NCBI GenBank assembly: GCA_028718525.1
Contig: JAQULP010000012.1
Location: forward strand, 1-64,000
From: Sulfuricurvum sp.
GTDB lineage: Bacteria > Campylobacterota > Campylobacteria > Campylobacterales > Sulfurimonadaceae
DNA: 64,000 bases
Direction of reading: 5' to 3'
In this document: positions 4,624 to 58,601 of the stretch, one piece after another
How the letters are laid out: every line of letters starts with the position of its first letter
Numbering within the stretch: position 1 is the stretch's first letter
Translations under genes and position numbers: made by a program
Notes under the pieces: model-generated
Databases searched by the model: none
What the model saw: only the letters and a program-made list of their open reading frames with translations
What the model was told of the DNA's origin: nothing

Positions 4624-5379
4624 ATGAAAACTCCACATTTTTATGCCGTAATCATCGGTTCTGAAATTCTCAATGGGCGTCGGGAAGACAAACATTTTAT
4701 TTATCTTCGAGATGCCCTCCTTCGTCGAGGTCATACCCTTTTCGCTTCATTCATTATCAAAGACGATCCTGTCCTGATCCGAAATATGTTTTACATGATT
4801 AAGAATGATCCCCATGCGGTAATGTTCAGTTTCGGAGGAATCGGTTCTACCCCTGATGACTTAACCCGTCAAATCGCATCGGATGTCTTTAGTGACGGTG
4901 AGTTGGTGCCGCATTTGCAATTTACACAGGACATAATTGACCGTTTCGGCGAAGAGGCCTATCCGCATCGTATCAATATGGCACATTTGCCGAAGAATTC
5001 CTTATTGCTTCCCAATATTATTAACAATATGTCTGGGTTTTATCTTGAAGATCGCTACTTTTTTATGCCGGGATTTCCCAATATGTCTCATCCCATGGTA
5101 GACAATGCCTTAGATCGTTTTTATCTTCATGCACCAACAATTTACCGACATACATTAACGGCACAAACTTCTGAAAATACCTTAATCACCATTATGGAGC
5201 AAATGGATAAACGGGTCGATTTTTCCTCCTTACCGATGATGAACGGTCCATCCCCTTCTGTAGAAATTTCGGTTGCATCTGAGAATGAAGCCCTCACTAG
5301 GGATAGTTTTCAACTTTTTATTGATAAATTGAATCTGGAATCAATCCCGTATGCCATTTTGGAGAGTGTAAAAAAATAA
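4624..5379 (+). CDS. CinA-like MoaB/MogA-fold (molybdopterin-binding) protein
   Basis: 251 aa. The N-terminal 160 residues match the MoCF_biosynth fold shared by MogA, MoaB and the CinA N-domain (VIIGSEILNGRREDKH, FSFGGIGSTPDDLT, LPKNSLLLPN, FFMPGFPNMSHPM). The C-terminal nicotinamide-nucleotide amidohydrolase domain of full CinA is absent. CinA-type N-domains act on ADP-ribose or related pyrophosphates in NAD salvage, whereas MogA relatives act in molybdopterin synthesis. Which applies here is not decided by sequence. The extended -10 box 6 nt before ATG suggests leaderless translation. Confidence 0.75.
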   Translation: MKTPHFYAVIIGSEILNGRREDKHFIYLRDALLRRGHTLFASFIIKDDPVLIRNMFYMIKNDPHAVMFSFGGIGSTPDDLTRQIASDVFSDGELVPHLQFTQDIIDRFGEEAYPHRINMAHLPKNSLLLPNIINNMSGFYLEDRYFFMPGFPNMSHPMVDNALDRFYLHAPTIYRHTLTAQTSENTLITIMEQMDKRVDFSSLPMMNGPSPSVEISVASENEALTRDSFQLFIDKLNLESIPYAILESVKK

Positions 5380-5432
5380 ATTTTTTTTCTTTGATGCCGA
5401 TTTTATTTTATATTAGAGGTAGGGAGAGTGCA

Positions 5433-5576
5433 ATGCAAATGGTCAACATTTTAATGGTTTTATTGGTATTCATCATTTGTATGTATATCGCGTATAGGAT
5501 TCTTTTTTTTAAAACTACCAAAAAAACGAATCAGAGGAAGAAACCCCATTTTACCTTTAAAATTGAGTCGGAATAG
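5433..5576 (+). CDS. Small single-pass membrane protein
   Basis: 47 aa. The start at ATG 5433 is preceded by GGGAG. One hydrophobic span (residues about 4-24) is followed by a basic tail rich in Lys and Arg, predicting an N-out/C-in topology with a cytoplasmic tail. The longest ORF begins at 5391 but lacks a ribosome-binding site. It lies 53 nt after the CinA-like gene and converges on htpX. Function unknown. Confidence 0.55.
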   Translation: MQMVNILMVLLVFIICMYIAYRILFFKTTKKTNQRKKPHFTFKIESE

Positions 5577-5582
5577 ATATCT

Positions 5583-6473
5583 CTAGCTGTAGTGACGGTC
5601 ATAGAGCTTATTGCGTTCTTTCATACTTGTTAGCTCTCTCTTTAGCATTTCTAACCGTTCAAGCCTCTGTTCAGTCGTTGGATGGGTGCGAAAAAGGGTA
5701 TTGAATGAAACTTTTTTTCCATCAAAAGGGCTGATAATAAACATATGCGCATTTTCCGGTGTCGCGCCCTGCACTTCCCCTCGTCCGTTATAATTTGAAA
5801 GCTTAATAAGGGCGTTTTGGAGCCATTCAGGGTGGCCGGTTAAACGGGCTGCCCCTTCGTCAGCCATAAATTCGCGTGATCGACTAATCGTCATTTGGAT
5901 AATACTGGCAGCAATAGGAAGTAATATAGCCATGGCAATCATGACAATCGGATTGATATTTCGATTATTACGTCCGAATATAGCTCCAAATTGCATCATA
6001 TTCGCGATAAAAGCGATCGCTCCGGCTATCGTTGCCGCAATCGTGGCAATTAGAATATCACGATGTGCAACATGCGAAAGTTCGTGAGCCATGACCCCCT
6101 CAATCTCTTCTTCATTCAAAAGTTCCATGAGGCCGGTGGTAATAGCAACGGCGGCATGTTCAGGATTTCGTCCGGTTGCAAAAGCGTTGGGAATATGGTC
6201 ATGGATAATGTAGACTTTCGGCATAGGCATATTGGAACGTTCTACCAATCGTGTTACAACACGATAAAGCAAGGGGGTTTCACGGGGATCTGCCTCTTGT
6301 GCATTATAGTGGTTTAAAATCATTGTATCTGAAAAATAGTAGGCATAAAAATTCATTCCGCCAGCCATAATCAAGGCTATTATCATTCCAGCGGTTCCAC
6401 CGAGATACCCTCCGATTAAGACCAGTAAAATACTTAATGAACTGAGTAATAAAAAGGTTTTAATCTGTTCCAT
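5583..6473 (-). CDS. htpX: Membrane-bound zinc metalloprotease HtpX
   Basis: 296 aa. Two N-terminal membrane spans (residues about 5-45), the M48 zinc motif HELSH at 130-134, a downstream membrane hairpin, and the third-ligand region [12 protein letters not shown]. HtpX degrades damaged or misassembled inner-membrane proteins. Length and motif order are normal. Its start overlaps the 3' end of the ankyrin gene by 14 nt, so the two are translationally coupled. Confidence 0.95.
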
Positions 6474-6948
6474 TTTTTGTTTCCTCTTCTAAAAGGGACA
6501 AAATAGATTTTTTTCGCATTTTACGCGCAAAATCAATAGCACTGAGGCCATAGGCATCACGAGCATTAAGATCCACACCCATTTCCAATAATTTTTTAAT
6601 AACATCAACACGTCCGTAGCAAACAGCCCCCATTAACGGAGTAAATCCACTTTTACGGCTCGCTTGGTTAATGTCAAAATTGTCGTTTATTAATTTTTCG
6701 ATCACTGAAAGATTATTATAGGTCACTGCTACATCAAATACACTGACCCCTTCATGATCAACATGATGGATATCGGCACCGTTTTCAAGCAATAAATCGA
6801 TTAACATCTCATCACAGTGATACCGGATAGCAAAACAGAGTACCGATTCTCCATTCTCTTCAACTTCATTCGGATTACCGCCGTTCTTGAGGTATTTTTT
6901 TACGCCAAGGTAGTCATTAGCTTTTAATAAAATTGTCCACTGTTCCAT
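6460..6948 (-). CDS. Ankyrin-repeat protein
   Basis: 162 aa with about four ankyrin repeats (for example [57 protein letters not shown]). No signal peptide, so a cytoplasmic protein-protein interaction role is likely. It is the first gene of a pair with htpX, suggesting it may act on or regulate that protease or its substrates (inference). Confidence 0.85.
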
Positions 6949-50459: not shown

Positions 50460-50489
50460 ATTGTAGCAACATGACGCTTATGCTACAAT
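50460..50489. promoter_or_regulatory. Divergent extended -10 boxes, also the integration target
   Basis: ATTGTAGCA (50460-50468) and TGCTACAAT (50481-50489) are a perfect 9-bp inverted repeat with 12 nt between. Each arm is an extended -10 (TGnTACAAT). The minus-strand one drives queC: a start point about 7 nt on leaves a 15-nt leader with AAAGGT. The plus-strand one is the original ybeY promoter, now copied at 58164-58172. Confidence 0.6.
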
Positions 50490-50494
50490 GTCAC
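50476..50494 (+). repeat. Left attachment-site core (attL)
   Basis: The 19-bp GCTTATGCTACAATGTCAC is identical to 58159-58177. Flanking bases differ on both sides, so the repeat is exactly 19 bp. It overlaps the plus-strand arm of the divergent promoter. Confidence 0.85.
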
Positions 50495-50500
50495 TCACTC

Positions 50501-50570
50501 CCCTATTTTGCGTACTTTCAGGGACTATATTTGATAGGGTTGCCAAAAGGTTGCCATAATTAGATGGCAA
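50501..50570. repeat. Left arm: GGTTGCCA repeats and CCCTATTTTG
   Basis: GGTTGCCA occurs at 50538-50545 and 50549-50556, with the reverse form TGGCAA at 50565-50570 inside the integrase stop region. CCCTATTTTG is at 50501-50510. The same motifs recur near the right end, the GGTTGCCA motif in opposite orientation. They are good candidates for integrase arm-binding sites. Confidence 0.6.
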
Positions 50571-51633
50571 TGTTGTTAACTTTTGTAGCATCTACCCTAA
50601 GTTTTCCAGTGTAATGATTGCGATTAACACGATCATCTACGTGCCCCATTATGTCTAAAATCCAGTCGGTAGGATAACCGTATTCTTTCAAAATTGTATT
50701 GAATGAACGTCTTAAATCATGGATGGTTCCATGTCTTAAATTGTTATCGGACAACAGTTTTTTAAATCTAAAATTCATGGTTGGCGAACCGTAATAGTTG
50801 TTCCCCGATTGATTGATAAAAACGAACTCTTTTAGACCGCTATACATTCTTTGTTTTAGCAATGCTTCTTTGCACTGTTTAAACATCGGAACGAATCTAA
50901 TCTTTCGTGACTTCGTTTCATCCTCAACGCCTCTTACAATTCGTGTATCAACACGTATTACCTCTTTTTCAAAGTCAATATCATCCCATTTCAGACCGAC
51001 AAGCTCCGATCCTCTCATACCCGTAAAAAAAGCTATTTGAATATAGTTTTTCAATTGCCCTTTTGCAGATTCAAGAATTTTCTTTATCTCATCTTCTGTA
51101 TAGTACACACGCTCTTTTACCGAATGTTTTTTCGGCAGTTTTACCAGTGTTACGGGGTTTTTCCTGATGATATCGTCATTCGTAGCCGTTTGCAGTACGA
51201 TATTTAAATACGCACGATAGGTGGAAACCGTTTGAGGCGAAAGCCCGCTTTCCCGTTGCCACTTCATAACGTGGGTCGTTTTAATATCAGTTAATAAAAA
51301 CTCTCCAAACTTCTTTGAATCGCCCATCTTGAAATCACAAATAAGCTTAAACGTCTTTTTAATACGCTCATGCACGTATTGCCTTCTATTCTCACTTGTA
51401 AGATCAAGAACCATCACCCCATACTCTCGTAATGTAAGATCGCTGTACTCTTCTTTTTTGGGTTGGTATTTTTCTTCAAATAACTCACGGTATTCGGAAT
51501 CGAAGTTCTTTTCATACCATTTTAAAAGCCGTTTATCCGCTTTTTTTCCAGTAGAAATTCGCTTACGAGTACCGAACATATCGCTGTCTAACGTAACAAT
51601 GCCGTGTTGATTTGCGTAAACTCGACGTATCAT
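50560..51633 (-). CDS. Tyrosine recombinase (site-specific integrase)
   Basis: 357 aa. N-terminal arm-binding-type domain (GIVTLDSDMFGTRKRISTGK), SAM-like core-binding domain (about 75-170), and a catalytic domain with R in FFTGMRGSELVGLKWDD, K in ETKSRKIRFVP, HDLRR (HxxR), H in DIMGHVDD and the nucleophile Tyr in NRNHYTGK. It integrates and excises the element at the queC/ybeY site. AAGGAG precedes the ATG. The full active-site set is present, so it should be functional. Confidence 0.95.
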   Translation of the reverse strand: MIRRVYANQHGIVTLDSDMFGTRKRISTGKKADKRLLKWYEKNFDSEYRELFEEKYQPKKEEYSDLTLREYGVMVLDLTSENRRQYVHERIKKTFKLICDFKMGDSKKFGEFLLTDIKTTHVMKWQRESGLSPQTVSTYRAYLNIVLQTATNDDIIRKNPVTLVKLPKKHSVKERVYYTEDEIKKILESAKGQLKNYIQIAFFTGMRGSELVGLKWDDIDFEKEVIRVDTRIVRGVEDETKSRKIRFVPMFKQCKEALLKQRMYSGLKEFVFINQSGNNYYGSPTMNFRFKKLLSDNNLRHGTIHDLRRSFNTILKEYGYPTDWILDIMGHVDDRVNRNHYTGKLRVDATKVNNIAI

Positions 51634-51650
51634 TGATTTCTCCTTGATAT

Positions 51651-51663
51651 GTCGGTCACTGAC
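51651..51663. promoter_or_regulatory. 13-bp repeat in the integrase leader, matched inverted at the right end
   Basis: GTCGGTCACTGAC lies between a -10-like TAAAAT (plus 51671-51676) and the integrase ribosome-binding site. Its exact reverse complement GTCAGTGACCGAC is at 58086-58098 near the right end. The core GTCA-S-TGAC is palindromic. It could bind the excisionase-like protein or another element regulator. Confidence 0.5.
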
Positions 51664-51679
51664 GAAAGGTATTTTACAT

Positions 51680-51922
51680 TCAAGATGCTTTTATTTTGAC
51701 TATCGGTAGCGATTTGATATTGATGTACCATAGTTTTCCCCGTTTCACGAAGTCCTCAGGATTGATATTGTTGTAACACCATTTCCGTAATCCGTCGAGT
51801 GTCTTGTATCCGCACTCTGTGGCAAATTCCCGTGTGATCGGATACCACTGCGGTAAGGATCGATGAATGGTTAAAATCGTGTCGAGCTTTTCGTTAAGCT
51901 CTTGGAATTTTTCTTCAAGCAT
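51680..51922 (-). CDS. Small DNA-binding protein, excisionase-like
   Basis: 80 aa. An N-terminal helix (KFQELNEKLDTILTI) is followed by a MerR/Xis-like winged helix pattern (WYPITREFATECGY, LDGLRKWCYNNI, FVKRGKLWYINIKSL). The size, position next to the integrase and fold pattern suggest the recombination directionality factor. Overlap or close spacing with rep (9 nt) puts both in one transcript. Confidence 0.6.
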   Translation of the reverse strand: MLEEKFQELNEKLDTILTIHRSLPQWYPITREFATECGYKTLDGLRKWCYNNINPEDFVKRGKLWYINIKSLPIVKIKAS

Positions 51923-51931
51923 TCCATCTCC

Positions 51932-53245
51932 CTAAAACATATCGGGGATAAGCTTGCGCCGTTGCATCTCATTCGTGAGTGCAATGTATCGGTATGAGAG
52001 ATCATCATACAAGGGTGAATCCATATCCAACCCGTCCATCTCAATCGAGAGCCGATGATCCAGATTCCATAATCCCTCATCACTGTATTGTTTGAGTTCC
52101 TCTTCAAAGGTTGGTTGTTTTTGCTCTTCTTTATGATCCTCATGCAGTTTTTTACTATTCACTCTTAGATCAAATTCCGCTTTGGCACGTTGTAGCACAT
52201 CAAGAAAGAAAAGCAAGGTTGGATCATTACCATGCACCAGTAATCGAGTAATGACTTTTTTCATTGTCTTCTCTGCATCTTGCAGTGAGTATCGAAAGCT
52301 GATCTTTTCGATCTTCTCCAACGGCGTATCAATCTGCATAAACTCCGTAATATCGTAATGATATTTAATGTGATTCCATATCGGTGAGATGGTTGCCCGC
52401 TTTCGGTTAGAGGAGTTAAGCGCTTTTTCGCTGATACTCTCTGGATCAATCAGCTTGATTTGGTCACAAGCGTTTTTAAACAGCACTCTTGCACGTTTAA
52501 GAGCATCGTCTATGGTATCGATCCCGTATTGTTTTAGATACTCTCGGTGCATCTCAAATTCGACGTTAAAGATCGGTTTCTCCAAATCCATCCCGTGAAT
52601 CCCGAAATGGTTGTACATGATTTCCCGTTTGATCGGTATTGCACCTTGAAGCTCTTTATGCTTGTTGTAAATACGGAGCAAAAAAGGTTTCTTACCCACA
52701 TAGTACGTTTCAAGTTCATACGCATTGGAACGCTCACCAATCGCAGCGGAATGATTTTGCTTTTTGGACAAAATCATTTCTTTTCTAAGATAGCTGAAAT
52801 CGTGTTGGATAAACATATTCAGATCGATTCGGGTGATCGGGAATACATTCATGGTGTATCCGCCTAAGTATTTCGTGTTTACGTACTCTATAAGCGATTT
52901 TAAGCCCAGTGTATAGATTCCTGCACTATTAAGCTGAATCCGTATGTTGTGAATATTCATCGCTTTCTCAGGGTCTTTAAATCCTGATCGGAAGAAGTCG
53001 TGATTGAACCAGTGAAATCCATCTCGTCCCATACCGCTGTAAACGACATCGATCCCGTTAATGTTTACTATGATGTCATTATCAGCATATTGATAGTTAA
53101 GAGATTTAAAATAGGCTTTCTTATCTTCGATCTGATCGATAATGTTTTGATACAGCCGATCATAAAAAGCACCGCTTTGTGCAAAGTAATACAATGCGTC
53201 AACGCCACAGGCATAAGGCAATTTTCCGGCATTAGAATATGGCAT
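51932..53245 (-). CDS. Rolling-circle replication initiator (Rep_trans-type)
   Basis: 437 aa. It matches the replication-initiation-factor family of filamentous phages and small plasmids: TRIDLNMFIQHDFSYL, then a repeated-strand region with YVGKKPFLLRIYNKHKEL, and YFEMHREYLKQYGI-like FEMHREYLKQYGID. Such proteins nick one strand at the origin and start rolling-circle synthesis. AAAGGA lies upstream of the ATG, and a palindrome (53260-53272) lies upstream of that. The C-terminal third is helical and charged. A strong structural block lies between it and the next gene, fitting an origin. Confidence 0.75.
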   Translation of the reverse strand: MPYSNAGKLPYACGVDALYYFAQSGAFYDRLYQNIIDQIEDKKAYFKSLNYQYADNDIIVNINGIDVVYSGMGRDGFHWFNHDFFRSGFKDPEKAMNIHNIRIQLNSAGIYTLGLKSLIEYVNTKYLGGYTMNVFPITRIDLNMFIQHDFSYLRKEMILSKKQNHSAAIGERSNAYELETYYVGKKPFLLRIYNKHKELQGAIPIKREIMYNHFGIHGMDLEKPIFNVEFEMHREYLKQYGIDTIDDALKRARVLFKNACDQIKLIDPESISEKALNSSNRKRATISPIWNHIKYHYDITEFMQIDTPLEKIEKISFRYSLQDAEKTMKKVITRLLVHGNDPTLLFFLDVLQRAKAEFDLRVNSKKLHEDHKEEQKQPTFEEELKQYSDEGLWNLDHRLSIEMDGLDMDSPLYDDLSYRYIALTNEMQRRKLIPDMF

Positions 53246-53259
53246 AGGGTTTTCCTTTC

Positions 53260-53522
53260 GACGTTTAACGTCAGTTTTTTATTTATAAATCGTTATTGGT
53301 AGAATGTGATTTGACTTATGTCAGGGGGTGTTACTAGAACCCCCTGAACTCTTAGTGCTTCGTTCGGATAGCCCGCTAAACGGGCACCCAATCCGACTCA
53401 AAGCACTTTTGTTATTGCTGTGTGTTACATCAACGGCTTTAGCTTCCTCTTCGCGATGCGTAAGGCCGCAGCGCTCATCGTGTCGCACAACCGTTGTCAA
53501 TCGCAATGGCTGAACCATTGCG
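53260..53522. other. Hairpin-packed non-coding block, candidate replication origin
   Basis: Four or more inverted repeats in 263 bp. GACGTT-T-AACGTC (53260-53272). TCAGGGGG/CCCCCTGA (53321-53347, 11-nt loop). A three-tier structure 53354-53407 with AGTGCTT/AAGCACT, TCGGAT/ATCCGA and GCCCG/CGGGC. CAACGG/CCGTTG (53431-53496) enclosing CGCGATG/CATCGTG with one G-T pair. CGCAATGG/CCATTGCG (53502-53522, CTGAA loop). The block separates rep from the 84-aa gene and is more GC-rich than the genes beside it. A double- or single-strand origin is the best guess; a structured RNA is the alternative. Confidence 0.55.
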
Positions 53523-53531
53523 CTTTCTTTG

Positions 53532-53786
53532 TTAGATTCCGAAGAATGTACATTGTCCGAAGTAGGAAACGTCCACTTCGATTTGTTTGCCTTCCATACC
53601 CGCATATTTCGAGGCTTTTTCAGTAGGGATCGTTAGATCAACAAGTTCACTTTTAGAACCGTTCTTGACCGTCTTTTCGATCAATACTTGGATGCGTTGT
53701 TTGACAACGGGGATTGAGGTTTCTTTATCGACATAGGTCGTTTCATAACCACCGATATATTTGCCTATCATTTTTAAAGAAGACAT
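53532..53786 (-). CDS. 84-residue protein, possibly ssDNA-binding
   Basis: 84 aa, strand-rich (KYIGGYETTYV, QRIQVLIEKTV, KQIEVDVSYFGQCTFFGI), no signal peptide. Size, beta-rich pattern and position before a Rep gene are like single-stranded DNA-binding proteins of filamentous phages. I do not see a decisive motif, so this is only a suggestion. AAGGA lies 7 nt before the ATG; two palindromes lie upstream. Confidence 0.5.
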   Translation of the reverse strand: MSSLKMIGKYIGGYETTYVDKETSIPVVKQRIQVLIEKTVKNGSKSELVDLTIPTEKASKYAGMEGKQIEVDVSYFGQCTFFGI

Positions 53787-53811
53787 GATTAATCCTTTGG
53801 GACTGAATTAA

Positions 53812-53846
53812 CCAAAGCGCTTTGGAGATTTTGTATGTAACGTTAC
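53812..53846. promoter_or_regulatory. Two palindromes upstream of the 84-aa gene
   Basis: CCAAAGC-GCTTTGG (53812-53825) is a perfect 14-bp palindrome and GTAACGTTAC (53837-53846) a perfect 10-bp palindrome. A TACAAT -10 candidate lies just further upstream on the minus strand. They look like operator sites for control of the 84-aa/rep/xis/int transcript. Confidence 0.5.
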
Positions 53847-53890
53847 GATAGAAATTGTATGAAAAAATCTGACTTGAATTTTCGGAAGAA

Positions 53891-54934
53891 TTACACTATT
53901 TCTTGTAAAAGTTCCGAAGGGGTAGAAAGTGTATGGAGGCGTAATGGATTGTTGAATGTTTCGTCAATGATAAACATGGGAAATTTTTTAGTATCGACTA
54001 TCTGATGCTCAATTATTTTATTACGATATCTAGCTCTTTGAGAGAGGCAAATTGATTGGGTTTTTGTACTAAAGCCAAAGATAATATTCTCACCAATAAC
54101 CTCTTTGACATAAAGGTTCTTTAATAGCTCACTACTTTCGTATTTTTTTGCAACACCAAATATATCAAATACAATACCTTTTGTAGTACTCAAAGCTAAC
54201 TCAGAATCGATCCGCATTTTAAAGCGTAAATAGTAATAAAGCACTGCCAATAAACTATTGGCACAATCTTCTTTGTCTACCCTACCAGACATAAACATTT
54301 TCAAAGTACGTTTCAATGTTTTAGATTCTGATGAACCATTTTTGAATAATTTAAAATTATCGACACCGAATAAAGCTATTATGCTCAAATAATGCTTTGT
54401 GAGTTTTTCATTCAAATACATATTTTTGTGGAGAATAGCTTTTACTAATTCGGCACCTTGAGAAGTAGTCTCAGAATCAAAAGCATATTTGATTGACTTT
54501 CTGTATCTTGATCGATGTGTCTGAGTATGCCTTGTATATAAGCCTATTGTACCTTTCTGGAATTTCTTGTCTTTTGATAACCGCAAAGCTTCCAAAGTTT
54601 CTCTGATGAAACCCAATACTTTGTAAGTGTGATAGAGGAAGTTTTGACCTTGAAAATTCATTACAACATCATGCCGACATACTGATTCTAAAGCACTTTT
54701 TAACCCTCTTGACTTATCAACTTTGATCTCAGAAAATGAATTAAATAAGTCGAATGTGTTGCCTAGATAAATAAGATCTGGTTTGACATACTTATATATT
54801 TTAATTTCGTCGTTTAGCTTGTATAGCTGAATTTCAGACAATAAAGATTTTTGCAAGTCAAATATGTAATTCGTTTGGTCGTTTGAATACCAATGCGAAT
54901 ATTTATTTTTATGTACTTGTTTTGGTTTTGACAT
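53891..54934 (-). CDS. Unrecognised 347-aa partner of the HD-ATPase protein
   Basis: 347 aa, no signal peptide or membrane span, AT-rich. The N-terminus is polar (HKNKYSHWYSNDQTNYIF), followed by mostly helical segments (LYHTYKVLGFIRETLEALRL, YLSIIALFGVDNFKLF, CANSLLAVLYYYLRFKM) and a strand-rich end (NIIFGFSTKTQSICLSQR). No known catalytic motif. It begins 2 nt after the stop of the HD-ATPase gene, so the two must be made together. It is a candidate effector or specificity factor. No family is recognised. Confidence 0.75.
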   Translation of the reverse strand: MSKPKQVHKNKYSHWYSNDQTNYIFDLQKSLLSEIQLYKLNDEIKIYKYVKPDLIYLGNTFDLFNSFSEIKVDKSRGLKSALESVCRHDVVMNFQGQNFLYHTYKVLGFIRETLEALRLSKDKKFQKGTIGLYTRHTQTHRSRYRKSIKYAFDSETTSQGAELVKAILHKNMYLNEKLTKHYLSIIALFGVDNFKLFKNGSSESKTLKRTLKMFMSGRVDKEDCANSLLAVLYYYLRFKMRIDSELALSTTKGIVFDIFGVAKKYESSELLKNLYVKEVIGENIIFGFSTKTQSICLSQRARYRNKIIEHQIVDTKKFPMFIIDETFNNPLRLHTLSTPSELLQEIV

Positions 54935-54936
54935 GG

Positions 54937-57810
54937 CTATATATTCTCTTCTTCAACAAAATACCAACTAGGAAAGTCTTCTATAGTTAATTGATATTGT
55001 TTTGAGTCTTCAGACAAAATTTCCTTCATTTCAATTAGCCGATTGAGTACATATTGCTGTAAAGCAGTATTCAATGTTTCTATATATCTTTTAGTTAAAC
55101 ACTTTTGAAATTTTAATGCGTATATCTCTCCATTTCCGATCAATCCGAAATAATGATTCTCTTGAATATTCCAAACAAATTCATTCAGTCTGCCACCTTG
55201 TAATAAAACGACTATAAAACTGTTATACAGAGCATTTTTAAAAGACTTTACAGCTGCTAATTCTTCATATTTTTCTAGCAAAGAACCCAACCGATGTTTT
55301 TTATTATAGGCTATCAAATTAAAACCATTATATTGATTATTCGAAATTAAACAAAAATACTTATCCACATGATCGTCTATGGTTGTCCATGTATAAGATA
55401 ATGAATATAAAAATGGACTTATTGAATCAACATTTTGAACAGTCAAAGAATTGTACGTCAACCCGCTGACATCACTTGCAGAGCAAAGAATATTTGAAAT
55501 TACATATGGTTCTATACATTGATAGAAATAATGTATGCTTACTTGTTCACTTATAAGTATGAAGTCATAACCAACTGATAACAAATAAGCAAATAACTCA
55601 TTCCTGATTTTTCCATTTTCATTAAGCATATATCCCAATGGTACTATTGCAATTTTCGTTGTTGATTTATTTTTAAACCCCTGAGCAATTTCGTATATAT
55701 TTTTTCTGGAAAAAGTTATCTCTGTTGGTAAAACTTGAGCATATAAAAACAATGGAATACTCATTAAAAAATCGAGTTCTATCTCAAGAAAGTGGTTATT
55801 TCGTGCTCGCCCGTCACTCGCATAAAAAGAAAAGAATTGAATAAAAGGTTCTTTATCCAATTGTGCTTCATACTGTCTAAAGATATTTATTATCTTTTGC
55901 ATAATTATTTTTTTAATTAGCAACAAATTTGGATCATTTGACTCTATTTTACTTCGTGAAGCTTTTAATTGAATTTTATGAGAATCAGGAATATTGATAT
56001 TAAATCTTACATTGCTCAACCAAGTAGGTGCAAGATTGATATTACTTCCTTGACCATTGATAACAAAACATTGTTGTGCAATTTTATTGGTTGAAAAAAG
56101 TTGATGTTCCCCCGCTCCTATAAACATCATATATCCCTCAATAATATCACTATCCTCAAATTCAAAAAACAAAGATCTCTGAGCAATTGAATGATCATCA
56201 GGCAATCTAATTTTTTTATTATTCAGTATTTCTGTATCAAAGTCATCGACACTGACACTAATTGGAATAGGTTGATAAGACATCACATCCTTTATAATTG
56301 TCACCAAATCGTTTTGCTCTATTTTTTTTGCATACTCATCATGAAATCTCAATTTAATCAATGTTCCTATTTTTTTTCTAAGCGGCTCTTTTTCCTCGAT
56401 AAACTTGTTTTTAAAATGTAATGTAAAATGTATTGGATCGCAATTCTCTTTTAGAGAATCAATTTCAATGTATTCAGAGACCATAAAGCAGGAAATTATG
56501 CCTATTCCAAAATTACTAATAGGACTAAATTGCATAGCATCACGTGCAAAAAATCTACTTTTATAAAAACTTCTGCCAATTGAAATCACGAAGTTTTTAA
56601 AAACATCATCATTGATCCCAATTCCATTGTCTTCAATTAAAAAAACTTTTTCCACACTGTCATATCTGATTTGTATTGCTGGTGAATAAAACTCTTGTTC
56701 TCTACTTAAAAGCTCATTACGATATCGACAAGCATCATAAGAATTTTGGAGTAATTCCCGAAGAAACATATCTGTTGAATCATACAAATTGGTTCCCATT
56801 AAAATTTGGAGTATTTTCTCATAATCTAAGTGGAGAACGAGATCGTTATATTTATATCCAATAGGTGTGATATTAAATTTCAATTCTTCTTTAAGTAAAA
56901 GAAAATATGGCGATACGCCATTTTCCTCTAAAAGCCGCATACTTTCTTTACGTTCATGCTCAATCCAGCCTAGGAACTCCTGTACTCTTCTGTGGGTCAG
57001 AATATCGTAACAGGTAGCTTGATATTCGATTTTATGACTCGTGATCTCGTATCCGTCTATGGAAAGATGTTTTTTCCATTCAGATAAGCTGGTTTCATCT
57101 TTTATGCCAATATGCTTAAATAAAAAATATGGCGTACGATTTATATCAAAATCCATGATATCCCCAAGACGCAACAAAATAGCAATAAATTGTATATTTA
57201 CACGATATTTTGAAATCAACTTGTCTTGTGGATACAAATCTTTATGACGCAAATAATCTACAGGTTTTTCATGACTTCTTATAACCGTTTTTATGAATTG
57301 AGTGATATCTTTTTCTCTGAATGTAAAATCAATTTTATAAGTACTAAAAGAACTATTAAAAATATCTATATAAGATAAACTGCGTTCAACATGCGTACGT
57401 CTTATATATTCAGTTAAAATGGTTTCATCATCTGTCTCTTCTCCATATTCCATAGTAATACGAAAAAACTCATCTTCAGATTTTAATTTTTCTGCTTCCT
57501 CACGATTTACTACCATACCAATATCATGCAATATTACGGAGTAAATTAAAATTTGTAATTCCACGATATTCAGACGAACTTCAGAAGGTATTATTTTTGC
57601 AATAATGTCAAGTATATTTAAACAATGCTCAATATTGTGTGATGTATATTCAGGCATGAAAGAGGAGATGCGATTTAAAAGTTGACTTGCAACATTAATC
57701 AAGTGATTCTCAATATTGTTACTTATCGGAAAATTAGTGAGGCCAAATTCTTCTTTCTCGTATTTTTTTAATTGTTGGAATAAAGAATTGTTTTGTAATC
57801 TTAAAAGCAT
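54937..57810 (-). CDS. HD-domain / Hsp90-like ATPase fusion, candidate defence protein
   Basis: 957 aa from ATG 57810. The longest ORF starts 15 codons earlier at 57855 without a ribosome-binding site, so 57810 is preferred, although its own site is weak. Residues about 50-230 are an HD phosphohydrolase-like domain: H58/H62 in SHNIEHC, HD at 95-96, H140 in RTHVERS, H180 in RSHEKP and D217 in RLGDIMD. Residues about 330-600 are a GHKL/Hsp90-type ATPase: N-box ELLQNSYDA (352-360), G1 EDNGIGIN (393-400), G2 NFGIGI (433-438). The C-terminal 350 residues are unassigned. HD plus Hsp90-like ATPase proteins are known from bacterial conflict systems. Confidence 0.85.
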   Translation of the reverse strand: MLLRLQNNSLFQQLKKYEKEEFGLTNFPISNNIENHLINVASQLLNRISSFMPEYTSHNIEHCLNILDIIAKIIPSEVRLNIVELQILIYSVILHDIGMVVNREEAEKLKSEDEFFRITMEYGEETDDETILTEYIRRTHVERSLSYIDIFNSSFSTYKIDFTFREKDITQFIKTVIRSHEKPVDYLRHKDLYPQDKLISKYRVNIQFIAILLRLGDIMDFDINRTPYFLFKHIGIKDETSLSEWKKHLSIDGYEITSHKIEYQATCYDILTHRRVQEFLGWIEHERKESMRLLEENGVSPYFLLLKEELKFNITPIGYKYNDLVLHLDYEKILQILMGTNLYDSTDMFLRELLQNSYDACRYRNELLSREQEFYSPAIQIRYDSVEKVFLIEDNGIGINDDVFKNFVISIGRSFYKSRFFARDAMQFSPISNFGIGIISCFMVSEYIEIDSLKENCDPIHFTLHFKNKFIEEKEPLRKKIGTLIKLRFHDEYAKKIEQNDLVTIIKDVMSYQPIPISVSVDDFDTEILNNKKIRLPDDHSIAQRSLFFEFEDSDIIEGYMMFIGAGEHQLFSTNKIAQQCFVINGQGSNINLAPTWLSNVRFNINIPDSHKIQLKASRSKIESNDPNLLLIKKIIMQKIINIFRQYEAQLDKEPFIQFFSFYASDGRARNNHFLEIELDFLMSIPLFLYAQVLPTEITFSRKNIYEIAQGFKNKSTTKIAIVPLGYMLNENGKIRNELFAYLLSVGYDFILISEQVSIHYFYQCIEPYVISNILCSASDVSGLTYNSLTVQNVDSISPFLYSLSYTWTTIDDHVDKYFCLISNNQYNGFNLIAYNKKHRLGSLLEKYEELAAVKSFKNALYNSFIVVLLQGGRLNEFVWNIQENHYFGLIGNGEIYALKFQKCLTKRYIETLNTALQQYVLNRLIEMKEILSEDSKQYQLTIEDFPSWYFVEEENI

Positions 57811-58038
57811 TTTTTTGCATCTCACATTAAAGTATATTTTATTTAATATTAACATTTTTATTTAAAAAAATTAACATGAAACAAAAATTTTGAGATATGT
57901 CATTTTTAAAAAAATGTTAAAACAAAATACTTTACACAATAAAGCATAGCTCTTCTGTAACAGAACCTATTAAAATACCGTATTTTAGGGAACAAAATGC
58001 ACGCGGCTTAGGTTGTGTATTTTTATTTATATTATTCG

Positions 58039-58139
58039 TGGCAACCTTCGTGGCAACCGTTGCCATATTTGTACGTTTTCGGTTTGTCAGTGACCGACTT
58101 TTTGCCTATTTTAGGCTATTTGAAAGCCCTATTTTGGGC
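58039..58139. repeat. Right arm: TGGCAACC repeats, 13-bp repeat and CCCTATTTTG
   Basis: TGGCAACC at 58039-58046 and 58051-58058, followed by the inverted GTTGCCA (58059-58065): a mirror of the left arm. GTCAGTGACCGAC is at 58086-58098. GCCTATTTTAGGC (58104-58116) and GCCCTATTTTGGGC (58126-58139) are small hairpins; the second holds the CCCTATTTTG also found at the left end. The 368-bp gap 57811-58178 holds these and an AT-rich promoter region for the cargo, but no gene. Confidence 0.6.
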
Positions 58140-58158
58140 ACTTTTATAAAATTTCAGA

Positions 58159-58177
58159 GCTTATGCTACAATGTCAC
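58159..58177 (+). repeat. Right attachment-site core (attR)
   Basis: GCTTATGCTACAATGTCAC, identical to 50476-50494. It contains TGCTACAAT at 58164-58172, an extended -10 ending 6 nt before the ybeY ATG, so the insertion leaves ybeY with its promoter core. The ybeY transcript would be leaderless. Confidence 0.85.
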
Positions 58178-58178
58178 C

Positions 58179-58601
58179 ATGATAGAACTAGATAACCGAA
58201 CCGAAAAAAATTATAATTTTGACTTTCTCGAACGAATCGCACAAGAGCTGACCCATCAAGAAGTCGAATTAATCCTCACCGATAACGATGAAATTGCGCA
58301 GATTAATCGTGAATTTCGTAATATCGACAAACCGACCGATGTACTCAGTTTTCCGAGTGATCCGTTCCCCGGCGCGCCGCTTGGCAGTATCGTCATCAGT
58401 GTGGATAAGGTAGAGAGTGTAGCTACCGAATTAGGACACAGCCAAAACGATGAAATCGCCCTCCTCTTTATCCATGGTATGCTACACCTTATGGGATACG
58501 ACCATGAAACGGATCAGGGAGAGATGCGGGATAAAGAATCCGAACTGATCCAACAATTTTCCCTTCCGAAAAGTCTGATCGTTCGTACACTCGAAGAGTA
58601 A
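58179..58601 (+). CDS. ybeY: Endoribonuclease YbeY (16S rRNA 3'-end maturation, quality control)
   Basis: 140 aa from ATG 58179 (MIELDNRTEKN). The zinc motif HGMLHLMGYDH (H-x3-H-x5-H) and RNIDKPTDVLSFP are present. A longer ORF starts at 58038 inside the element's right arm and is an artefact of the insertion. There is no Shine-Dalgarno sequence; the extended -10 box 6 nt upstream implies leaderless translation. The native partner across the gap is queC. Confidence 0.93.
   Translation: MIELDNRTEKNYNFDFLERIAQELTHQEVELILTDNDEIAQINREFRNIDKPTDVLSFPSDPFPGAPLGSIVISVDKVESVATELGHSQNDEIALLFIHGMLHLMGYDHETDQGEMRDKESELIQQFSLPKSLIVRTLEE

Follow-up and report, generated by a model that had tools for sequence, protein, structure and literature searches.

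A protein that joins HD-CE and Hsp90-type ATPase domains, carried by a small integrative element of Sulfuricurvum, as a probable single-gene immunity protein

What is a protein that joins a metal-binding HD domain to an Hsp90-type ATPase doing on a small mobile element? The question is raised by a stretch of 64,000 nucleotides of DNA from Sulfuricurvum sp., a member of an environmental genus (contig JAQULP010000012.1, positions 1 to 64,000), called the window here, in which the gene for a 957-residue protein, P0001 (54937..57810, minus strand), lies within a 7.7-kb integrative element next to the gene for a 347-residue protein, P0002. An earlier prediction, made from the letters of the sequence, took P0001 for a candidate defence component and P0002 for its partner. 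The analysis described here favours a different arrangement. P0001 is probably a single-gene immune protein, because about half of the related elements hold known types of anti-virus gene in the same slot. Related loci are cited by number (L002, L019 and so on).

The HD-Hsp90 protein and its active sites

The reading frame of P0001 has no internal stop, and an in-frame upstream ATG at 57855 would extend the product to 972 residues. Pfam searches make P0001 a clear member of the HD-CE family (PF24391), scoring 170.6 bits (cut-off 27) with an E-value of 6.8e-50 over residues 52-286 (56953..57657, minus strand); the general HD model PF01966 scored 14, below its cut-off of 22. HATPase_c_3 (PF13589) was matched with 25.2 bits, just over its cut-off of 25. 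In a phmmer search of solved structures, the N-terminal domains of Hsp90, TRAP1 and HtpG matched approximately residues 329-521, with TRAP1 as the best match at 3.5e-14. The predicted Hsp90-type ATP-binding domain thereby occupies 56248..56826 on the minus strand (for both domains the coordinates are derived from residue numbers).

Both active sites are present in full. The H...HD...D metal-binding motif of the HD phosphohydrolase superfamily is made up of H58, H62, H95, D96, H140, H180 and D217, each at the position that the original prediction had given. The complete GHKL ATP-binding set that it had also described was found as E352, N356 and D359 (N box), D394, G396 and G398 (G1 box) and G435 and G437 (G2 box), where E352 is the invariant catalytic glutamate of an Hsp90-type N-terminal ATP-binding domain. 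When P0001 was aligned with 80 homologues, none of these 15 residues varied among the rows that have a letter there (79-81 of 81), which argues for strong selection on both sites. The solved sequences nearest to the HD profile were weak matches, namely the predicted HD hydrolase 2pq7 (7.9e-4) and PDE9A (0.011).

About 350 C-terminal residues had been described as unassigned, which holds beyond approximately residue 648 but probably not up to it, where an Hsp90 profile matches. When hhalign was run with a profile built from P0001 plus four close homologues, Campylobacterota HtpG aligned over P0001 residues 336-648 (probability 99.7, E 1.1e-25), with the P0001 segment LKASRSKI opposite the HtpG segment LNVSREIL. 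The latter is the loop that carries the catalytic arginine of Hsp90. R619 (codon 55954..55956, minus strand), aligned to the LNVSRE part of this loop, is a candidate for that residue; it is invariant in five close homologues and an arginine in 41 of the 81 rows of the wider alignment. A part resembling the Hsp90 middle domain, at approximately residues 522-648 (55867..56247, minus strand), is likely on this alignment but unproven. Two results count against it: the middle-domain match taken alone is not significant (P 0.017), and with a wider profile of 24 sequences the match (E 2e-28) ends at the N domain. No Hsp90 C-terminal domain was recognised in P0001, the match ending near residue 648 with about 300 residues beyond. 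Only close homologues match residues 530-957. Of the 80, L039 and L040 align nearly throughout, L041 partly (its DNA has a masked stretch, seen as X in the alignment) and L042 weakly. The L020 homologue aligns to residues 530-957 too.

Proteins like P0001 have a patchy distribution, occurring in 8 of 397 Campylobacterota genomes at E<=1e-30. Genome contigs searched with the P0001 sequence alone gave no relative; the search with a homologue alignment, A1 (in which L023 begins late), gave 310 stretches, the best 80 of which were used for the homologue alignment. These 80 include Bacteroidota, Bacillota, Endomicrobia and methane-cycling archaea (L044, L046, L047), so the fusion crosses domains. 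A Hymenobacter homologue is 40% identical to P0001 over nearly its full length. Among plasmid records, 259 match P0001; the best 30 comprise ten that match from the HD part onward and 20 that match the ATPase part only, many of them annotated htpG. Twenty-four phage records match, and among the 20 listed one (MT837299.1) spans both the HD and ATPase parts. This is a 7.2-kb "Bacteriophage sp." record from human faeces, matched over positions 5116-6579 at 4e-18.

Two homologues have neighbourhoods worth recording. The one at L019:8379-12297, 46% identical to P0001, lies within a surface-polysaccharide gene region, and the gene that follows it resembles by eye the DUF1016 PD-(D/E)xK nucleases. 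The other, at L002:9001-12403 on a plasmid of Aliarcobacter butzleri, is annotated as two genes and stands near a Shedu-annotated gene, with a predicted chloramphenicol-resistance gene about 9 kb away.

The element, its family and its cargo

The element extends from 50476 to 58177, a span of 7.7 kb with both copies of the perfect 19-bp direct repeat that bounds it. One copy of this attachment (att) repeat, GCTTATGCTACAATGTCAC, lies on the integrase and queC side (50476..50494, plus strand) and the other on the ybeY side (58159..58177, plus strand), directly 5' of the ybeY ATG at 58179. The insertion parts queC from ybeY in this genome. Thirty loci of the genus were checked for ybeY, the window included. 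Of the other 29, 14 have queC approximately 49-194 bp from ybeY, and in 15 queC lay outside the stretch examined; in each of the 14 empty sites a sequence resembling att, with 1-6 mismatches, immediately precedes ybeY. A site-specific integrase, direct repeats and an empty site, the marks of an integrative element, are all present, and the small integrated element first proposed for this locus is confirmed by them.

All six genes of the element run in one direction, on the minus strand. The first from the queC side encodes a tyrosine recombinase of 357 residues, the integrase (50560..51633; PF00589 at 7.7e-26 and phrog_1 at 5.4e-57). It is followed by a small protein of 80 residues (51680..51922), excisionase-like by position only, which had no Pfam match and has a similar open reading frame (ORF) in L228, and by a Rep-like protein of 437 residues (51932..53245), recognised from its family alignment and a weak match to the replication-initiation family phrog_453 (0.043). 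Next to Rep is a conserved protein of 84 residues ending in FFGI (53532..53786), which is called like a single-stranded-DNA-binding protein (SSB-like) by position and analogy only. P0002 (53891..54934) and P0001, 2 bp apart, complete the set. No structural phage gene was recognised among the element ORFs, and no relaxase family turned up in the Pfam matches of the element genes, though no search aimed at relaxases was made.

The att repeat contains TATGCTACAAT, which by eye resembles an extended -10 promoter element, and the att site in the window (58159-58177) and in L199-L227 may thus coincide in appearance with the ybeY promoter at its extended -10 region. The site between queC and ybeY seems to be an integration hotspot that holds different genes in other genomes of the genus. 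In L228, from the same place as L200, the site is taken by a related element that has an 18-bp repeat and a pair of large genes resembling, by eye, a type III restriction-modification (R-M) pair; the gap has an ATPase gene in L229 and, by eye, a sensor/regulator pair in L231, both without integrase or Rep; and in L200, L202, L214 and L215 the sequence beside the repeat resembles by eye the end of the window's element.

The same layout of integrase, Rep, small protein, a protein of about 350 residues (the slot-1 protein) and cargo recurs in Campylobacterota. With an alignment of five Reps, the Rep family was found at E<=1e-6 in 35 of 394 genomes of the phylum. Matches at E<=1e-90 define 38 strong places in 29 of the 394, counting that of the window; within the genus, 15 of 41 genomes match at 1e-20. 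An integrase of the same family adjoins Rep in 37 of the 38 loci, and the small protein is beside it in 25 by a hidden Markov model. A direct repeat of at least 16 bp bounds 28 of the 37 loci with integrase and Rep, giving elements of 4.3-11.0 kb. The control, one base shuffle per locus, gave repeats of at most 14 bp among the results listed, and the element borders with repeats of 16-18 bp are the least secure. Secondary repeats occur in several elements, and in L159 and L172 a second, GCACA-type class of repeat was set aside for the tRNA-type repeat. Of the 28 bounded elements, 20 have an integrase-side repeat that overlaps a tRNA gene; in L175 the repeat lies beside a tRNA gene, not within it. 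No description of this element family was found in those parts of the literature that were available.

The cargo slot provides the main evidence on function. Among the 28 bounded elements, 14 carry cargo that we read from its family names as defence-type, two carry HD-CE-Hsp90 proteins and 12 carry neither; Pfam matches to defence-type families above curated cut-offs were obtained in 13 of the 28. The defence-type cargo consists of a KAP NTPase (L036), reverse transcriptases (RTs) that are retron-type by PADLOC (L151 and L153, the latter also by NCBIfam models below their cut-offs), Schlafen-type helicases (L154), AAA_21 with an Mrr nuclease (L155), GmrSD_N (L156, L163 and L167, the last two also with HEPN), AAA_21 (L157 and L159, the latter also with a patatin), HaeII R-M with Vsr (L160), NB-ARC-TPR (L169) and Thoeris ThsA with TIR (L175). 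In the fourteenth element, L172, the RT shares 51% identity with its L151 counterpart. The two HD-CE-Hsp90 elements are the window's and L024, an 8.3-kb element at tRNA-Leu whose 991-residue protein has only about 30% identity to P0001 over 37-488 (BLAST), with the active-site residues common to both.

PADLOC models at E<=1e-8 were employed for comparison with the surroundings. The 79 cargo ORFs matched 212 families, compared with 4 for 79 flanking ORFs sampled from 274 outside the repeats, where the 212 are families rather than proteins matched and are inflated by redundant RT models. The cargo ORFs include P0001 and those slot-1 proteins that the P347 profile missed; Pfam scans, made singly, covered 40 of the 79. 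The borders of the element and the position of P0001 in the cargo slot bear out the view that it is mobile-element cargo. Its proposed role in defence is supported by association, through the 14 of 28 same-slot defence-type cargos, the PADLOC excess and the L024 protein, and in this sense the defence link is stronger than could be seen from the window.

Of the 12 elements with neither kind of cargo, L166 (SduA_C) and L176 (HEPN) have Pfam matches below the cut-offs, in L158, L165 and L170 no match exceeds a cut-off, and L037 and L162 hold nothing besides the slot-1 protein. The cargo of L035, L171, L177 and L179 was judged by eye, with one L035 protein scanned. Two cargo types recur. A sensor-like protein of 560 residues with a short receiver-like protein was seen by eye at L035:12349-16147 and L231:9675-12416, the L035 sensor-like protein having no Pfam match, and a retron-like RT with a partner of about 305 residues occurs in L151, L172, L238 and L239, the partners in L151 and L172 having no Pfam match.

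Function and rival explanations

The reading that we consider likely is that P0001 is a single-gene accessory immunity protein of an element family whose cargo slot is often occupied by systems directed against phages or other elements. The defence role is suggested by the position and company of the gene, whereas the two active sites are shown by sequence conservation; coupling between the ATPase and the HD site is what we infer. As a mechanism, the Hsp90-like N and middle parts would form an ATP-driven dimer clamp, whose closure, through E352 and R619, would bring two HD domains together or uncover them. The HD domain might then hydrolyse a phosphodiester or nucleotide (a cyclic nucleotide, dNTP or nucleic acid), by which the invader or the infected cell would be stopped, and the variable C-terminal part after about residue 650 could recognise the trigger. 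P0001 would in this case be a single-gene HD effector, gated by ATP, that counters phages or competing elements.

The neighbours of homologues elsewhere were surveyed as well. From 30 loci, 29 outside Campylobacterota and one (L039) inside, 112 neighbour proteins of the 193 eligible in 52 loci matched 217 PADLOC families, and the matches listed (25 of the 217) include Old, AriA, GajA, PtuA, AbiLi and HEC-01. The homologues as a whole are not the mostly lone housekeeping genes, free of links to mobile elements or defence genes, that would have spoken against the earlier prediction, yet many do stand alone.

Several observations weigh against a role in immunity. Many homologues are, by eye, lone genes among ordinary genes (for example L042, L043 and L044). 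The neighbour result is softer than that for the cargo, its control having a different phylum make-up and some of its matches being generic; at 1e-8 PADLOC admits such matches, as with a radical-SAM gene near a homologue that was scored as viperin. In PADLOC-DB 2.0.0 itself, no family matches P0001 or P0002 at E<=1. The label defence-type is a reading of names, 12 of the 28 elements have no recognised defence cargo, and among these L178 carries a GGDEF protein and, by eye, L179 carries LysE- and cupin-like genes and L035 a sensor/regulator pair, so defence is not the only use of the slot.

The best of the alternatives, though an unlikely one, is that P0001 serves the element itself, by excluding competing elements or phages or by setting copy number or excision, and not the defence of the host. 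P0001 is co-directional with the backbone genes and only 2 bp from the first of them, and in other genomes the ybeY site is occupied by related elements or remnants with other cargo, as this explanation would have it. However, elements with the same backbone exist without P0001, and full-length homologues occur with no adjacent backbone by eye (L019, L020, L040). Backbone and P0001 thus occur apart, so P0001 is not needed for backbone function, an argument that does not bear on superinfection exclusion.

Somewhat less probable still is a specialised chaperone or stress protein, an HtpG paralogue with an HD adaptor and no role in defence. The homology to the Hsp90 N domain, the extension resembling the M domain and the many lone chromosomal homologues all speak for it. 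On the other side, P0001 reaches only 91.4 bits with the NCBIfam HtpG equivalog model, under the cut-off of 371, and it has an invariant HD metal site, a patchy distribution and a position in a defence-rich cargo slot. A housekeeping chaperone was rejected on the patchy distribution and the HtpG equivalog score.

There remains the partnership of P0001 with P0002. By single-linkage BLAST clustering, the P0002 family accounts for 12 of 32 slot-1 proteins. Apart from P0001, its members stand beside eight other kinds of cargo, namely KAP, Schlafen helicases, AAA_21/patatin, NB-ARC-TPR, Thoeris, RTs (two) and, named by eye, a sensor pair and a P-loop gene, and two further members have an empty slot. 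The slot-1 protein of L024, beside the divergent HD-CE protein, belongs to another family. Near the two full-length Campylobacterota homologues (L012/L019 and L013/L020) tblastn gave no match to P0002 within 1.5 kb, and inspection by eye of the wider stretches of L019 and L020 showed no P0002-like gene. P0002 is a component of the element backbone, which it accompanies independently of the HD-Hsp90 gene, and as a partner of P0001 it was rejected on the varied cargo of its family. A two-gene defence system of the kind first proposed, for which the 2-bp gap between the adjacent genes is the argument, is therefore very improbable, given the other or absent cargo of the P0002 family, the different slot-1 protein of L024 and the lack of a P0002 match at L012 and L013.

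Nature of the element and comparison with known systems

How the element replicates is suggested by a chain of Rep similarities. The window Rep was linked to that of L148 by hhalign (96.1%). The L148 Rep is in turn similar, at 6e-5 and over a third of its length, to the gene II endonuclease of the filamentous Thermus phage Zuza8. This transitive link makes filamentous-phage-like replication possible, and the element may replicate in this way, judging from sequence. Directly compared with the Zuza8 gene II protein, the element Rep profiles reached at most 4.4 bits, nor did the profile of the SSB-like protein convincingly match gpV of the Thermus phage. Rep profiles of the element also match Reps of prophage-like loci in six Campylobacterota genomes (L191-L196), five of the six at 1e-9 to 1e-12; the sixth, L193, was found only in the phylum-wide Rep search. 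By eye these loci have an IS110-like transposase, and several of them an ORF like M15 peptidases. They may be related to filamentous phages and be possible helpers.

In viral contigs, 66 stretches fit the pattern of the Rep alignment and none was confirmed by tblastn; the plasmid and phage collections gave no Rep match at E<=1e-5. Profiles of Rep and of the 347-residue protein had chance-level matches only against the PDB, and Pfam scans of distant Reps and slot-1 proteins gave none above cut-off. A gene II-like module without coat genes would fit inovirus satellites. We propose, tentatively, a class of Campylobacterota elements with gene II-like replication and no coat genes, possibly satellites of inoviruses, of which at least half of those bounded by repeats carry immune-type cargo. 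Among the cargos would be a new single-polypeptide protein in which an Hsp90-type clamp gates an N-terminal HD effector.

If this is true, Hsp90-type clamps in bacteria and archaea would be more than chaperones and would also act as switches built into immune effectors. The element family is also a discovery tool: half of the 28 bounded elements have defence-type genes in the cargo slot, so that same-slot genes with no family match (for example in L158, L165 and L170) become candidates for new systems. In the literature as far as it was accessible, no paper on an HD-CE-Hsp90 fusion was found, nor one behind the HD-CE label of Pfam.

Hotspots of variable anti-phage genes have been described in P4-like satellites and other small elements (PMC9122126, PMC8791490). 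The present family is likewise small and has a variable slot for anti-phage genes; it differs in its Rep, which is distantly linked to gene II of filamentous phages and has no match in the phage, plasmid and viral collections. With Hsp90, HtpG and TRAP1, P0001 shares the ATP-binding N domain with its N, G1 and G2 boxes, the catalytic glutamate and possibly an arginine loop like that of the M domain. Unlike them, it has an HD domain fused in front, its match ends at about residue 648 and it fails the HtpG equivalog cut-off.

Two defence proteins come close in design, as far as the accessible text of their reports goes. In Clover, CloA is a likely dGTPase, an HD-domain anti-phage effector with an accessory nucleotidyltransferase protein (PMC12265719). 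P0001 resembles it as an HD-domain enzyme and departs from it in the Hsp90 domain, none being described there for CloA. The Shedu protein VcSduA is a GHKL ATPase fused to a C-terminal PD-(D/E)xK nuclease, and its anti-phage activity is lost in ATPase variants and nuclease variants alike (PMC12137116). P0001 shares with VcSduA the union of a GHKL ATPase with a metal-dependent effector, the predicted effector of P0001 being an HD domain instead of a PD-(D/E)xK nuclease.

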